A DNA stretch of 56,282 nucleotides from Kiritimatiellia bacterium. GTDB taxonomy: Bacteria > Verrucomicrobiota > Kiritimatiellia > RFP12 > UBA1067. Under the pieces are notes generated by a model. That model did not search any database. It saw only the letters and a program-made list of their open reading frames with translations, and had not been told where the DNA came from. Each line of letters starts with the position of its first letter. Position 1 is the first letter of the stretch. Both the position numbers and the translations under genes were made by a program. The stretch lies in contig JAGCVN010000032.1 of assembly GCA_017962315.1 (NCBI GenBank), positions 1 to 56,282 on the forward strand, given 5' to 3'. Of the stretch, positions 12,801 through 17,616 are shown piece after piece.

Positions 12801-13529
12801 ATGATCATTCTACCGGCAATCGATTTGAAGGACGGAAAATGCGTCCGTCTCCGCCAGGGCAAGGCGGAGGATGTCACCATCTATTCGGACAGTCCCGTCG
12901 AACAGGCGAAGACGTGGGTCGCACAGGGGGCGCGGCAGATGCACGTGGTGGATCTGGACGGCGCGTTCGCGGGCGAGCCCCGCCACACCGAGGTGATCCG
13001 CGAGGTGATCCGGGCCGCCGGCATTCCCGTCGAGGTTGGCGGCGGGCTGCGCACGGACGCGCACGCCGAGGCGTTGATCGAAGCGGGGGCGGCACGGGTG
13101 ATCCTCGGCACGCGCGCGCTGGAAGATGTCGATGCGCTGGCGCGCCTCACCGCCCGGTTCGGCGAGAAGATTGCCGTGGGGATCGACGCCCGCGACGGCA
13201 TGGTCCAGGTGCGCGGCTGGGTCGAGACGACCCGCACGACCGCGACGGAACTGGCCCGCCGCGTTGTTGAGGCCGGCGTCCGGACGATCATCTACACCGA
13301 CACCGCGACGGACGGAATGCTCGGCGGTCCGAACGTCCCCGCCATGGACCGGCTCTGCCAGGCGGTTCCGAAATGCCGGATCATTGCCTCCGGCGGGGTC
13401 AGTTCCCCGGAAAACGTGCGCGCGCTGGCGGCACTGAAACGCGAGAATCTGTTCGGCGCGATTGTCGGCAAGGCCCTCTACGACGGACGTACAACGCTCG
13501 CCGCGATGAATCAAGCTGCAGGAGGATGA
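12801..13529 (+). CDS. hisA: ProFAR isomerase of histidine synthesis
   Basis: HisA isomerises ProFAR to PRFAR, the fourth step of histidine biosynthesis. The 242-residue TIM barrel opens with the typical IILPAIDLKDGKCVRL, carrying Asp8. It has the two halves of phosphate-binding motifs (VEVGGGLRT and IIASGGVSSPEN) and the second catalytic aspartate in the YTDTATDGM segment. The start is supported by AGGAGCAAGGACG upstream. The gene is isolated from other his genes in this window and sits 28 nt after the amidase and 4 nt before the M16 protease, so it belongs to a mixed housekeeping operon. Confidence 0.95.
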   Translation: MIILPAIDLKDGKCVRLRQGKAEDVTIYSDSPVEQAKTWVAQGARQMHVVDLDGAFAGEPRHTEVIREVIRAAGIPVEVGGGLRTDAHAEALIEAGAARVILGTRALEDVDALARLTARFGEKIAVGIDARDGMVQVRGWVETTRTTATELARRVVEAGVRTIIYTDTATDGMLGGPNVPAMDRLCQAVPKCRIIASGGVSSPENVRALAALKRENLFGAIVGKALYDGRTTLAAMNQAAGG

Positions 13530-13533
13530 GGCG

Positions 13534-14820
13534 ATGATGGAGAATGTCAAGGTTACGAAGCTCGCCAACGGCGCGACCGTGGTTTCGTCCGAAATGCCGA
13601 CGGCGGAAAGCGTCTCGTTCGGGATCGCGGTCAGGATCGGAAGCCGTTATGAACGTCCCGCCCAGGCGGGGATGAGCCATTTTCTGGAACATATGCTGTT
13701 CAAGGGGACGCCGACGCGGACGCCGTTGCAGATTTCCCAGGCGATTGAATCAAAGGGCGGTTCGTTGAACGCCTACACGTCGGACGACGTGACGTTCTAT
13801 TACCTGCGCATCCCCCGCGAGTGGATCGGGATGGCGGTTGACGTCTGCATGGATATGTACCTCAACGCCTCGCTCCGCCACGAGGATTTCGAGAAAGAGC
13901 GCATGGTCATCCTTGAAGAGATGAAAATGTACGCAGACCGTCCGCACGATGTGGTTGTGGAGAATGCGACGAGCGCACTCTTCCACAACCATCCCTTGGG
14001 AGCGCCGATAATCGGCAATCTGAAGTCCCTCACGGCGATGAACGCCGAATCGCTCCGGGCGTACAAGCAGAAAAACTATGTCCCGTCCAACACGATTTTC
14101 TCGTTTGCAGGGTGTATCTGTCACGAACAGTGCGTCGCGTACATCGAACGGGCCTTGGCGGGCGTCCGCCGCGGCACCCCGCTCACGTACAAACCGGTCG
14201 ACGCTTCGACCGGGCAGCTTCCCTTTATCGAGGCGAAAAAGGACATCCAGCAGGTGCACACGGTGCTGGCGTTCCGTCTTTTTGGACGGCACGACAGCCG
14301 GATCTACGCCCTGCGGGTGCTGGACGGGTTGCTGGGCGACAACATGAGTTCGCGTCTTTTCCAGTCGATCCGCGAGAAACGGGGGCTTTGCTACGCAATC
14401 AGCTCCAATATCGCGCTCGCGGACGAGGTCGGTTTGTTCAGCGTCGCTTTCGGCAGCGCCGTGGATACGGCGGGGAAAGCGCTCCGCCAGGTCGTGAAGG
14501 AACTTCGGAAGATTACGGAACGCCAGGTCGGCGCGGCGGAATTACGGCGCGTCAAGGATTACTTGGACGGACGTACACGCCTCTCTCAGGAGGGGACGCT
14601 CGGACAGATGCAGTACCTTGCGGGAAGCCTGCTGCACTACGGCCGGTTCATCCCGCCGGAGGAGGTCTCCGGTTTCGTGAACGACGTCACGCCCACCGAT
14701 CTCGTCCGTCTCGCTTCTCAGATTTTCAATCCCGCGCGCATGACGCTCTCCGTTGTCGTGCCGGAATCCCAGAAGGAGACGCAGGAAGAATGGCTCGGTA
14801 TGCTTGAAGATCTTGCCTGA
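13534..14820 (+). CDS. M16 family zinc metallopeptidase (processing-peptidase-like)
   Basis: The 428-residue protein has the inverted zincin motif HFLEH (His49, Glu52, His53) in MSHFLEHMLFKGTP. The third ligand region is ~75 residues later (EEMKMYADRPHDVV), and the C-terminal half holds the LFQSIREKRGLCYAI segment that completes the active site in M16B enzymes. There is no signal peptide, so it probably acts on peptides in the cytoplasm, like the YmxG/PqqL-related mitochondrial-processing-peptidase homologues. Two consecutive ATG codons follow GGAGGATGAGGCG; the first is used here. It is tightly packed in the operon (4 nt after hisA, 11 nt before the GNAT gene). Confidence 0.92.
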   Translation: MMENVKVTKLANGATVVSSEMPTAESVSFGIAVRIGSRYERPAQAGMSHFLEHMLFKGTPTRTPLQISQAIESKGGSLNAYTSDDVTFYYLRIPREWIGMAVDVCMDMYLNASLRHEDFEKERMVILEEMKMYADRPHDVVVENATSALFHNHPLGAPIIGNLKSLTAMNAESLRAYKQKNYVPSNTIFSFAGCICHEQCVAYIERALAGVRRGTPLTYKPVDASTGQLPFIEAKKDIQQVHTVLAFRLFGRHDSRIYALRVLDGLLGDNMSSRLFQSIREKRGLCYAISSNIALADEVGLFSVAFGSAVDTAGKALRQVVKELRKITERQVGAAELRRVKDYLDGRTRLSQEGTLGQMQYLAGSLLHYGRFIPPEEVSGFVNDVTPTDLVRLASQIFNPARMTLSVVVPESQKETQEEWLGMLEDLA

Positions 14821-14831
14821 CGGGAGACGTC

Positions 14832-15338
14832 ATGGAAACAAACGCTGAAAAAAACTGGACGATCCGGACGGCGACGCTACGCGATGCCCTGTCCGTCTTT
14901 GAGATTGTCCGTACACACAAGGAAGATCTGATTTCACGACCGATCGGCGACATTGTCGAGAACATCGACCGATTCGTCGTCGCGGTGTCGGACGACCGGA
15001 TCGTTGGATGCGCTTCGTGGAAAATCCTGCCGGAGATCGGGATGCCCGAACGGGCCTCGGTCGAAATCCAGTCTGTCGCCGTGGATTCCGCGTTCCGCCG
15101 CCAGGGTATCGGTTCGGCGTTGATCCGGACGATCCTGGAACAGATCCGCCGCTTCCGCCCGCCGCATGTGATTGTGCTGACCTTCGCGCCGGAATTTTTC
15201 GCCGCGCTCGGCTTCCGTCGCATCCCCAAGACGCAGGTGATGCACAAACTCTATATGGGGTGCATCAACTGCACGAAACACGCGAACCCGTTTACCTGCC
15301 CGGAAATCGCGATGACGTTGAACACGGACGAGGATTGA
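14832..15338 (+). CDS. Short N-acetylglutamate synthase-like GNAT acetyltransferase
   Basis: This is a 168-residue single-domain GNAT with the acetyl-CoA loop RRQGIGSALI. Two features point to the short class of N-acetylglutamate synthases: the PEFFAALGFRRI segment, and a cysteine-containing tail (Lys-x-x-x-x-Cys-x-x-Cys, ending CPEIAM), which resembles their W-x-x-C-x-x-C tail. It could acetylate glutamate as the first step of arginine synthesis. No other arg gene is present to support this, so a different amino-group acceptor is possible. It starts 11 nt after the M16 gene and ends 23 nt before pgpA. Confidence 0.7.
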   Translation: METNAEKNWTIRTATLRDALSVFEIVRTHKEDLISRPIGDIVENIDRFVVAVSDDRIVGCASWKILPEIGMPERASVEIQSVAVDSAFRRQGIGSALIRTILEQIRRFRPPHVIVLTFAPEFFAALGFRRIPKTQVMHKLYMGCINCTKHANPFTCPEIAMTLNTDED

Positions 15339-15361: not shown

Positions 15362-15862
15362 ATGGACAAGTTCAAGAACTTTCTGGGAAGCGGATTCGGA
15401 CTCGGCCTGATGCCGATCGTGCCGGGGTCGTTCGGCGCACTGCCGGGACTCGCCCTGCACCTCGCGCTCTGGTGGGCGGCCGCGGAATTCGGTTGGGGCG
15501 ACCTCGCGATCCGTGCCGGATGCCTGGCCGGCGCGGTGATCACTGCTGTCGTCCATTACTGGCTCACGCCGTGGGCGCAGGCGTACTGGGGAGATCCGGA
15601 TCCGCGGCACTTCGTGCTGGATGAAATCGTCGGTTATCTTTTCGTTCCGGTCTTCGCGTTTCCGATCGTGAAGTTCGAGTATATCCTGCTCGGATTCGTC
15701 CTCTTCCGTATTTTCGACGCGATCAAGCTTCCCGGCGCACGGTACATCGACCGCAACATCCACACCGCTTCCGGCGTGTTGTTCGACGATGTTGTCTCCG
15801 CCGCCTATTCAGCCGTCGCGCTTTCCGCCGTGATGTACTTCTATCCGCAGGGGGTGTTATGA
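15362..15862 (+). CDS. pgpA: Phosphatidylglycerophosphatase A
   Basis: PgpA removes phosphate from phosphatidylglycerophosphate to form phosphatidylglycerol at the inner membrane. The start at 15362 follows GAAGGAGGGG and gives 166 residues, normal for the family. An upstream in-frame ATG (15344) lies before that site. Visible family features are GFGLGLMPIVPGSFGALPG near the N-terminus, DPRHFVLDEIVGY with the catalytic Asp and Glu, and FRIFDAIKLPGARYID. At least three hydrophobic segments are visible. Its end overlaps the following dynamin-like gene as ATGA, so the two are likely translated together. Confidence 0.95.
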   Translation: MDKFKNFLGSGFGLGLMPIVPGSFGALPGLALHLALWWAAAEFGWGDLAIRAGCLAGAVITAVVHYWLTPWAQAYWGDPDPRHFVLDEIVGYLFVPVFAFPIVKFEYILLGFVLFRIFDAIKLPGARYIDRNIHTASGVLFDDVVSAAYSAVALSAVMYFYPQGVL

Positions 15863-17196
15863 ACAAAACCGGTGATTCTGCAACCACGTTGGAACAGGAA
15901 CTCAACAAATTGTATGAGAAACACCGTAAAACGGCGGCGCGTTTCGGTTATTCGTACCAGCGCGAGGCCGTTTCGATCGGTGCGCTCCCGTGTGTGTTGT
16001 TCATGGGCAATCACTCCTCCGGCAAGTCTACGTTGATCAACCACCTCCTCGGCGGCGGTCCTGTGCAGGACACGGGTGTCGCGCCGACGGACGACGGTTT
16101 CACCATCCTCATCTACGGGGAAGAGGAGAGTGACGCCGTGGGGCTTTCCGCCCTTTCCCTCCTGCCGCGCGAGAACGGGAAACTGACGGCGTTCGGTCCG
16201 AACTTCCTGAACAAGCTCAAGGTCAAGGTGCGGAACCGCGAAATCCTGAAACGTGTCGTCCTGATCGACAGTCCCGGCATGATCGACGCGCTCGAGGAGA
16301 GCATTCGGCGCGACTACGATTTCTTCGGCGCGGTCCACCGGATGGCGGAACTTTCAGACCTTATCATGCTCATGTTCGATCCCGACAAGCCCGGCACGAC
16401 CGGCGAGGCGATCGAGGCCTTGACCGGGCCGCTCGTCGGCATGTCGTTCAAACTCCGTATCCTCCTCAACAAGTGCGACCTTTTCCAGAACGTGTCCGAC
16501 TACGCCCGTGCCTACGGCGCACTCTGCTGGAACCTCGCCCATGCGATGCCCATCAAGGACCTGCCCAAGATCTACAGCTGCTACGTGCCGCAACCCGGCT
16601 GCATTCCACGAATCGGCGCCGAGGCGGGGATCGACGCCCTGCATCAGGTGGCAGACGAGATCCGGAACAGTGGTGAACGACGGACCGACAACGTCCGTGC
16701 CGCCGCCCACAAGGACTTCTCCTGCCTCGGTCTCCAGATGCGGATGATTCTGCGGTTGCGCGAGAACTTCAAAGGGGTCCGGATGAACCTCCTCTTCGGA
16801 TCGCTTGTCCTCTTCCTCGCCGTGACGGGCGCCGCTTATTTCACGTTGACGGAGCATTTCCTCCGCGAAAACCCTTCCGGGTTTGTCGCGTGGGCCGTCT
16901 ACCTGTCCGTCGGGGTGATCGCGCTCCTGACGGCGTGGGGCGCGTTCCTGTTCTCCCGCAAAGTGCTGTGCATCTACCGCGAAAACGCGCTGGCGCACCT
17001 CGATGAAATATTCGAGAAAGAATACGCGGACGAACTGGTGCAGGAAACACGCGACGACCTCCGCCAGTACTGGGAGCTGGTCAAGGTCGGCATCCGGAAT
17101 GCGTTCGACCCTTCCCGGAGTCCACTCCGTATTCCCTTCTTCGCCACCCAAAAACTGCAAGACGTACAGGCGGTGGTCAAACGCCTGGAAAGCTGA
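15859..17196 (+). CDS. EHD/dynamin-like GTPase with two transmembrane helices
   Basis: The 445-residue protein carries a complete dynamin-superfamily G domain: G1 GNHSSGKST (50-58), G2 around Thr77 in VAPTDDGFT, G3 DSPG (137-140) and G4 NKCD (204-207). The segment after G3 (RRDYDFFGAVHRMAELSDLIMLMFD) follows the pattern of eukaryotic EHD ATPase/GTPases closely. Two hydrophobic helices (about 311-332 and 343-366) follow, then a charged helical tail with predicted coiled-coil character. A membrane-bending or membrane-surveillance role is the family expectation; the exact function is unknown. Translational coupling to pgpA ties it to phospholipid synthesis. It is the last gene of the operon. Confidence 0.85.
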   Translation: MNKTGDSATTLEQELNKLYEKHRKTAARFGYSYQREAVSIGALPCVLFMGNHSSGKSTLINHLLGGGPVQDTGVAPTDDGFTILIYGEEESDAVGLSALSLLPRENGKLTAFGPNFLNKLKVKVRNREILKRVVLIDSPGMIDALEESIRRDYDFFGAVHRMAELSDLIMLMFDPDKPGTTGEAIEALTGPLVGMSFKLRILLNKCDLFQNVSDYARAYGALCWNLAHAMPIKDLPKIYSCYVPQPGCIPRIGAEAGIDALHQVADEIRNSGERRTDNVRAAAHKDFSCLGLQMRMILRLRENFKGVRMNLLFGSLVLFLAVTGAAYFTLTEHFLRENPSGFVAWAVYLSVGVIALLTAWGAFLFSRKVLCIYRENALAHLDEIFEKEYADELVQETRDDLRQYWELVKVGIRNAFDPSRSPLRIPFFATQKLQDVQAVVKRLES

Positions 17197-17616
17197 TTCA
17201 TATTTGCCACCATAAAGGATTTTTCTTCCAATCTGCAACAAAACCGGTGTGTGGTAAAAGCGATGGAAATTCAGAAGAGAATCGGTCGATAAGACAAAGG
17301 AACGCGCCCTTTATGGGCATTGTCTGAATCTCGAAAGAAACAAACAAGACACCCGGCGCGTGTGTTGGCGTTAGCTTCTCATATCATTCTGGAAAATACA
17401 AGAAAAATTTTGATATTTTCTGTCTTGGATGGGCGCATCCGCGAATCGTGCAACCGGTCTTTTGTCTCACACGGAGGAACGAGACAACCGGGACAACCGG
17501 GACAAACAGGACAAACGGGAGGGACGGGCTTTGTCCCGTCCGCGTCGCGACTGTCGCCTGTCGCTTGTCGTGCGAGGGGGGATTGTTTACAGATCGCAAT
17601 TGCCAACAGCGTTACG
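17197..17616. other. 420-nt intergenic region without a gene
   Basis: This is a convergent region between the dynamin-like gene and the propeller-like gene. It holds a small hairpin (GCCC-TTTAT-GGGC near 17310), an A/T-rich stretch (17390-17430), and a 9-nt tandem repeat followed by a hairpin, listed separately. No ORF here has convincing coding character. No standard terminator with a T-tract was found. Confidence 0.5.
17483..17541. repeat. 9-nt tandem repeat plus REP-like hairpin
   Basis: Four tandem 9-nt units lie at 17483-17518 (GACAACCGG twice, then GACAAACAG and GACAAACGG). A 7-bp hairpin follows immediately (GGACGGG, 17522-17528, with CCCGTCC, 17535-17541). It looks like a non-coding repetitive element; copy number elsewhere in the genome is unknown. 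Confidence 0.7.

Follow-up and report, generated by a model that had tools for sequence, protein, structure and literature searches.

An EHD-like NTPase with a predicted transmembrane hairpin overlaps pgpA in a Kiritimatiellae genome

Background

On this contig pgpA, which encodes phosphatidylglycerophosphatase A, runs directly into a gene for a dynamin-superfamily NTPase. The question raised by the locus is whether the two genes form a membrane-maintenance unit, as an earlier note on this DNA had proposed, or whether their adjacency is incidental and the second protein is better understood on its own terms. Our analyses indicate that the overlap with pgpA arose by chance from the local gene order and does not mark a conserved unit. 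The interest of the locus lies in the EHD-like NTPase family itself, and the pgpA link gives no lead. Throughout, the window is the whole stretch of 56,282 nucleotides that was analysed.

Results and discussion

Gene order at the pgpA locus

The pgpA gene (15362..15862, + strand) starts at the ATG at 15362, with an AAGGAGG just 5' of it, and stops at the TGA at 15860-15862. Its product gives a near full-length match to the PgpA family in Pfam (PF04608, E=1.9e-29, with a score of 102.9 bits where the cut-off is 28, and covering 2-140 of the 141 profile positions) and is otherwise unremarkable. The second gene (15859..17196, + strand) extends from the ATG at 15859 to a stop codon at 17194-17196 and encodes an EHD-like NTPase of the dynamin superfamily, 445 amino acids long, recognized by its matches to EHD2 and EHD4 and by a Dynamin_N score above the cut-off. 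The four-base stop/start overlap that had been claimed for the two genes can be read directly from the sequence as ATGA at 15859..15862 (+ strand). A genome search found a single copy of each gene in the window genome.

Upstream of pgpA, on the same strand and tightly spaced, are genes assigned with Pfam to a hisA-like His_biosynth protein (12801-13529), an M16 peptidase (13534-14820) and a GNAT acetyltransferase (14832..15338, + strand; PF00583, E=1.1e-12; spacing to pgpA read from the sequence), so that pgpA and the NTPase gene are the last two in a run of five. Hits in promoter and terminator scans were at chance level (1 hit where 1.2 were expected, and 5 where 5.7 were expected), and for this reason a shared transcript was inferred from the gene spacing, by which the GNAT acetyltransferase gene is probably transcribed together with pgpA and the NTPase gene. 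In a run of five tightly spaced genes on one strand, the ATGA overlap is therefore ordinary. On the 3' side of the NTPase gene, positions 17480-17525 of the window hold short imperfect repeats of the type GGGACAACC/GGGACAAAC.

The pgpA neighbourhoods were listed for eleven loci, with no pgpA frame picked for four of them (L087, L088, L090 and L095). The window pgpA is 59-65% identical to pgpA in six other genomes (L089, L090, L091, L093, L094 and L104), and yet, in tblastn with an E limit of 1e-4, it finds no match in the pgpA regions of two congeneric genomes (L087 and L088). The family therefore holds two divergent pgpA types, perhaps as a result of replacement.

An EHD-type G domain

The G domain of the NTPase (residues 41-245 approximately; 15979..16593, + strand) was delimited using an alignment of 17 family members and a HMMER alignment to EHD2/EHD4, and carries GNHSSGKS, PTDD, DSPG, RxYDF, NKCD and W224. 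It matches Dynamin_N in Pfam at E=6.1e-7 (30.1 bits, with the cut-off at 27), and all 17 members match this family at E up to 0.1. When the single NTPase sequence was compared with PDB sequences using phmmer, EHD2/EHD4 were found at E of about 1e-27 and the next best match at 0.35. A profile of the 17 members matched six EHD sequences at about 6e-42, followed by the next solved structure (5owv) at 0.0023, the best Der chain at 0.0031 and BDLP at 0.038. In a G-domain tree, which is limited by long branches and is weaker evidence for EHD kinship than this gap in score, EHD2/EHD4 and 17 bacterial rows grouped together with support of 83/83, apart from the two dynamin-like rows of the window genome and from those of its rows that we take, from their P-loop stretches, to be Der-, HydF- and MnmE-like. 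The tree places EHD2/EHD4 within the bacterial rows, at a branch length of 3.98, and we do not trust this placement. By sequence comparison, the G domain is of the EHD type, its similarity to EHD proteins exceeding that to other dynamins and GTPases, in agreement with the earlier note.

Mean pairwise identity among the 17 members is 61.7% in the G domain and 20-32% in the remainder of the protein. The P-loop, PTDD, DSPG, RxYDF and the NKxD region are conserved in the alignment, with either D or N at the fourth place of RxYDF and, in one of the 17 members, S for the N of NKxD. Since NKxD is common to ATP-using EHDs and to GTP users, the motifs do not tell ATP from GTP. W224 aligns with W238 of EHD2 in the HMMER alignment and is invariant (17/17); the available text of PMC9741607 describes W238 as the conserved Trp in the dimer interface specific to EHDs (interface 1). 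The N-terminal helix of EHD2 is matched from profile position 10, and similarity to EHD sequences stops at about profile position 243-273, the C-terminal part not being alignable. The KPF loop motif, which serves oligomerization, is missing in 17/17 members, with an invariant Glu (E105) at the position of its P, and a Pfam search to E=0.1 gave neither an EH nor an EF-hand match for any of the 17, the window protein ending at residue 445. With neither an EH domain nor a KPF motif, the NTPase is therefore termed EHD-like and not an EHD.

A predicted transmembrane hairpin

Two hydrophobic segments follow the G domain, residues 311-329 (mean hydropathy 1.94) and 347-365 (2.04), and together constitute a predicted transmembrane hairpin (16789..16953, + strand); hydropathy thus bears out the two membrane helices that had been noted before. 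By hydropathy both segments exceed 1.5 in 16 of 17 relatives, the second segment of L025 reaching 1.44. In the window protein, five Lys/Arg residues are found in the 20 residues before the hairpin, one in the 17-residue loop and three in the 20 residues after it, and these basic flanks around a charge-poor loop suggest that both ends of the protein are cytoplasmic. The exception to this charge pattern is L026, where the script took another first segment with a long basic loop; L027 has only one Lys/Arg before the hairpin.

Phe322 of EHD2, which is the membrane-inserting tip according to the available text of PMC13427840, lies 84 residues past W238. The first predicted helix starts 81-98 residues past the conserved Trp in 16 of 17 rows, and L026 offers two near-equal candidates. 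By this argument, which is one of distance and not of structure, the hairpin appears to sit at roughly the position of the membrane-binding tip in EHDs. Structure prediction from two sequences (the window protein and L018) gave a mean pLDDT of 36.7, too low to use, and so both the fold of the helical domain and the position of the hairpin are argued from distance along the chain. The C-terminal region beyond it (residues 373-445 by alignment; 16975..17193, + strand) is probably cytoplasmic and shows a mean pairwise identity of 29.5% in the 17-member alignment, against the 61.7% of the G domain. A DDLRQxW motif is common in this region of the 17 sequences and is not invariant.

Occurrence and neighbours of the NTPase

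Genomes were sampled within Verrucomicrobiota, and the distribution in other phyla rests on the available part of PMC7016017. Counting the window genome in each case, the NTPase was found in 17 of 60 near relatives, in 45 of the 345 genomes of the class and, at a strict threshold of 1e-20, in 11 of the 387 genomes of the phylum sample; 43 of the 45 fall in two families of one order. Among the 45 matches, that of G561 is a C-terminal fragment (1.3e-9), and those of G493 and G503 each have one TGA inside. Neighbours were covered at 37 of the 45 loci (all except G488, G493, G497, G551, G561, G562, G564 and G567); the contig starts at the NTPase in G004 and G499 and less than 600 bases upstream of it in G549 and G490. 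Neighbours vary across the 37 loci, and the patchy occurrence together with the shifting neighbours lends little support to any particular role.

The sole stable order was that of family f4, a different family of the order from that of the window genome, in which eight of the 12 NTPase-carrying genomes were examined. Here the order is coiled-coil protein, adk, EHD-like gene, tsaB (L026, L027, L028, L030, L033, L128, L138 and L140), with the coiled-coil protein and adk upstream in 8/8 and tsaB downstream in 7/8. The adk and tsaB counts were made using tblastn because mechanical gene calls got some neighbours wrong (for example, adk at G044). One possibility is that the NTPase is tied to adenylate kinase or TsaB, for instance as an ATP-using housekeeping factor, and the f4 order would fit this, as would the ADK and TsaD-type Pfam matches. 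However, none of the three genes was found by tblastn near the NTPase at the remaining 29 loci, that of the window among them. Both adk and tsaB are housekeeping genes that often occur in mixed operons, and we consider such a tie improbable.

Just as improbable, in our judgement, is that the NTPase acts in defence or in the response to phage, as a dynamin of the LeoA kind or one like it. Such a role would account for the patchy occurrence (45/345 class genomes), and weak PADLOC matches were obtained to LeoBC (0.0014) and LeoA (0.007). The LeoBC match covers only residues 313-411, the helices, however, and the LeoA match only residues 41-68, the P-loop region, at 13.5 bits; moreover, the neighbours are housekeeping genes, and neither the plasmid search nor the viral scan matched NTPase relatives in plasmids or viral contigs. 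Membership of the LeoA/BDLP type was rejected in its own right, the G domain not being best matched there (BDLP at 0.038, LeoA over the P-loop region only).

The proposal with which we began, that pgpA and the NTPase work together in membrane maintenance and that the NTPase senses or uses the phosphatidylglycerol made by PgpA, has some points in its favour: the four-base overlap makes translational coupling probable, the pair is kept in a sister genome, and phosphatidylglycerol is anionic. EHDs tubulate negatively charged liposomes, as stated in the available text of PMC9741607. The distribution argues against it. The two genes are adjacent in only 2 of the 45 NTPase genomes, namely the window genome and its nearest sister G003 (L018, JAGAEL010000170.1, a Kiritimatiellae MAG from water buffalo rumen, 90% identical and the sole genome to come from the contig scan). 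Of the 43 others, 38 (15 + 23) carry pgpA on a contig other than that of the NTPase and five gave no pgpA match, and G001 and G002, which belong to the same genus as the window genome, have the NTPase at 52% identity with no pgpA alongside. Furthermore, almost all near relatives have pgpA, whether or not they have the NTPase (57 of 60, nearly always in single copy, against 17 of 60 for the NTPase). The earlier note had regarded occurrence of the pair in one genome only as fatal to its proposal, and occurrence in the window genome and its nearest sister alone comes very close to that. As a conserved unit, pgpA and the NTPase are already largely refuted, and a functional partnership between them is improbable.

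Finally, a translation or tRNA-modification GTPase of the Era, Der or MnmE type can be dismissed on both score and tree, since alongside the weak matches to MMR_HSR1 (4.1e-6) and Era (1.8e-5) the protein stays below the curated cut-offs (Era 24.2 against 237 bits, Der 12.4 against 306.7), EHD sequences outscore the best Der chain by the gap given above, and the grouping with such GTPases that the earlier note had named as a second way to fail did not appear.

Proposed mechanism and significance

The reading that we prefer, with a probability of roughly 0.7, is that the product of the second gene is an EHD-like NTPase which its hairpin anchors in the cytoplasmic membrane and which works through an EHD-type cycle, the pgpA overlap giving no sign of a functional partnership. 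The available text of PMC9741607 describes EHDs as binding adenine nucleotides, dimerizing through alpha6, assembling through the G interface and tubulating negatively charged liposomes, and proposes hydrolysis as a timer for disassembly. Given that the protein has the G domain and the dimer Trp in common with EHDs, an EHD-like cycle is likely at the cytoplasmic face, in this case with a built-in anchor. The predicted hairpin of two helices would hold the protein in the cytoplasmic membrane, nucleotide-bound dimers would form via the alpha6/W224 surface, and these dimers would line up next to one another via the G interface at the inner face of the membrane. The resulting assembly may scaffold or bend the membrane, and nucleotide hydrolysis would dismantle it. 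The NTPase is thus likely to be an inner-membrane ATPase or GTPase that dimerizes, assembles, and scaffolds or remodels membrane, while the overlap with pgpA would come from the present position of its gene as the last in a series of housekeeping genes.

A wider reading is more tentative, and we hold it to be possible and somewhat doubtful. The Kiritimatiellae clade may possess a permanently membrane-anchored EHD-type motor in which a transmembrane hairpin replaces the peripheral EHD tip at the same place, with the same dimer and filament machinery acting on the inner membrane, and it could then be a living example of the form ancestral to eukaryotic EHDs. Bacterial EHD relatives are the named source of eukaryotic EHDs in the available part of PMC7016017. 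With 45 genomes, a conserved G domain, an invariant dimer Trp and a predicted hairpin at the EHD tip position, a pre-eukaryotic EHD filament mechanism becomes testable with one protein. The window organism is a gut bacterium with a predicted membrane-anchored relative of the membrane-bending EHD motors of animals, of a kind already noted in bacteria.

Comparison with known systems

Among openly licensed PubMed Central papers, we found no experiments on EHD-like proteins of bacteria, nothing relevant on Kiritimatiellae dynamins and nothing on a phosphatidylglycerophosphatase-dynamin operon. The type of GTPase itself is already in print. As far as the available part of PMC7016017 (Front Genet 2020) goes, that study presents trees and domain architecture, describes the closest bacterial homologs of EHD/sarcalumenin as having two transmembrane helices after the GTPase domain, and suggests a role for them in membrane dynamics. 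The window NTPase has this same arrangement, an EHD-type GTPase domain followed by two predicted transmembrane helices, and we infer that its clade is that of the published homologs, a likeness drawn from the published description and not from sequences. It is a further, Kiritimatiellae member of the type, whereas the source named for the eukaryotic EHD/sarcalumenin genes in the available part of PMC7016017 is proteobacterial.

Like the bacterial dynamin-like proteins (BDLP 2j68; 5owv), the NTPase is a bacterial, membrane-linked member of the dynamin superfamily, but its G domain is only weakly similar to theirs (profile 0.038 and 0.0023, respectively). The window genome also has two adjacent, slightly overlapping dynamin-like ORFs of 565 and 650 amino acids (L085:4128-7687; G000 contig C54), which look like a pair of bacterial dynamins distinct from the EHD-like gene.

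Among solved structures, the closest likeness by sequence is to the eukaryotic EHD1-4 ATPases (PDB 2qpt, 4cid, 5mtv, 7sox and 9rbu), with which the NTPase shares the G domain, the RxYDF after switch II, the interface-1 Trp and the N-terminal helix. It differs from them in having no EH domain and no KPF motif, and in the predicted transmembrane hairpin that would take the place of their peripheral tip.
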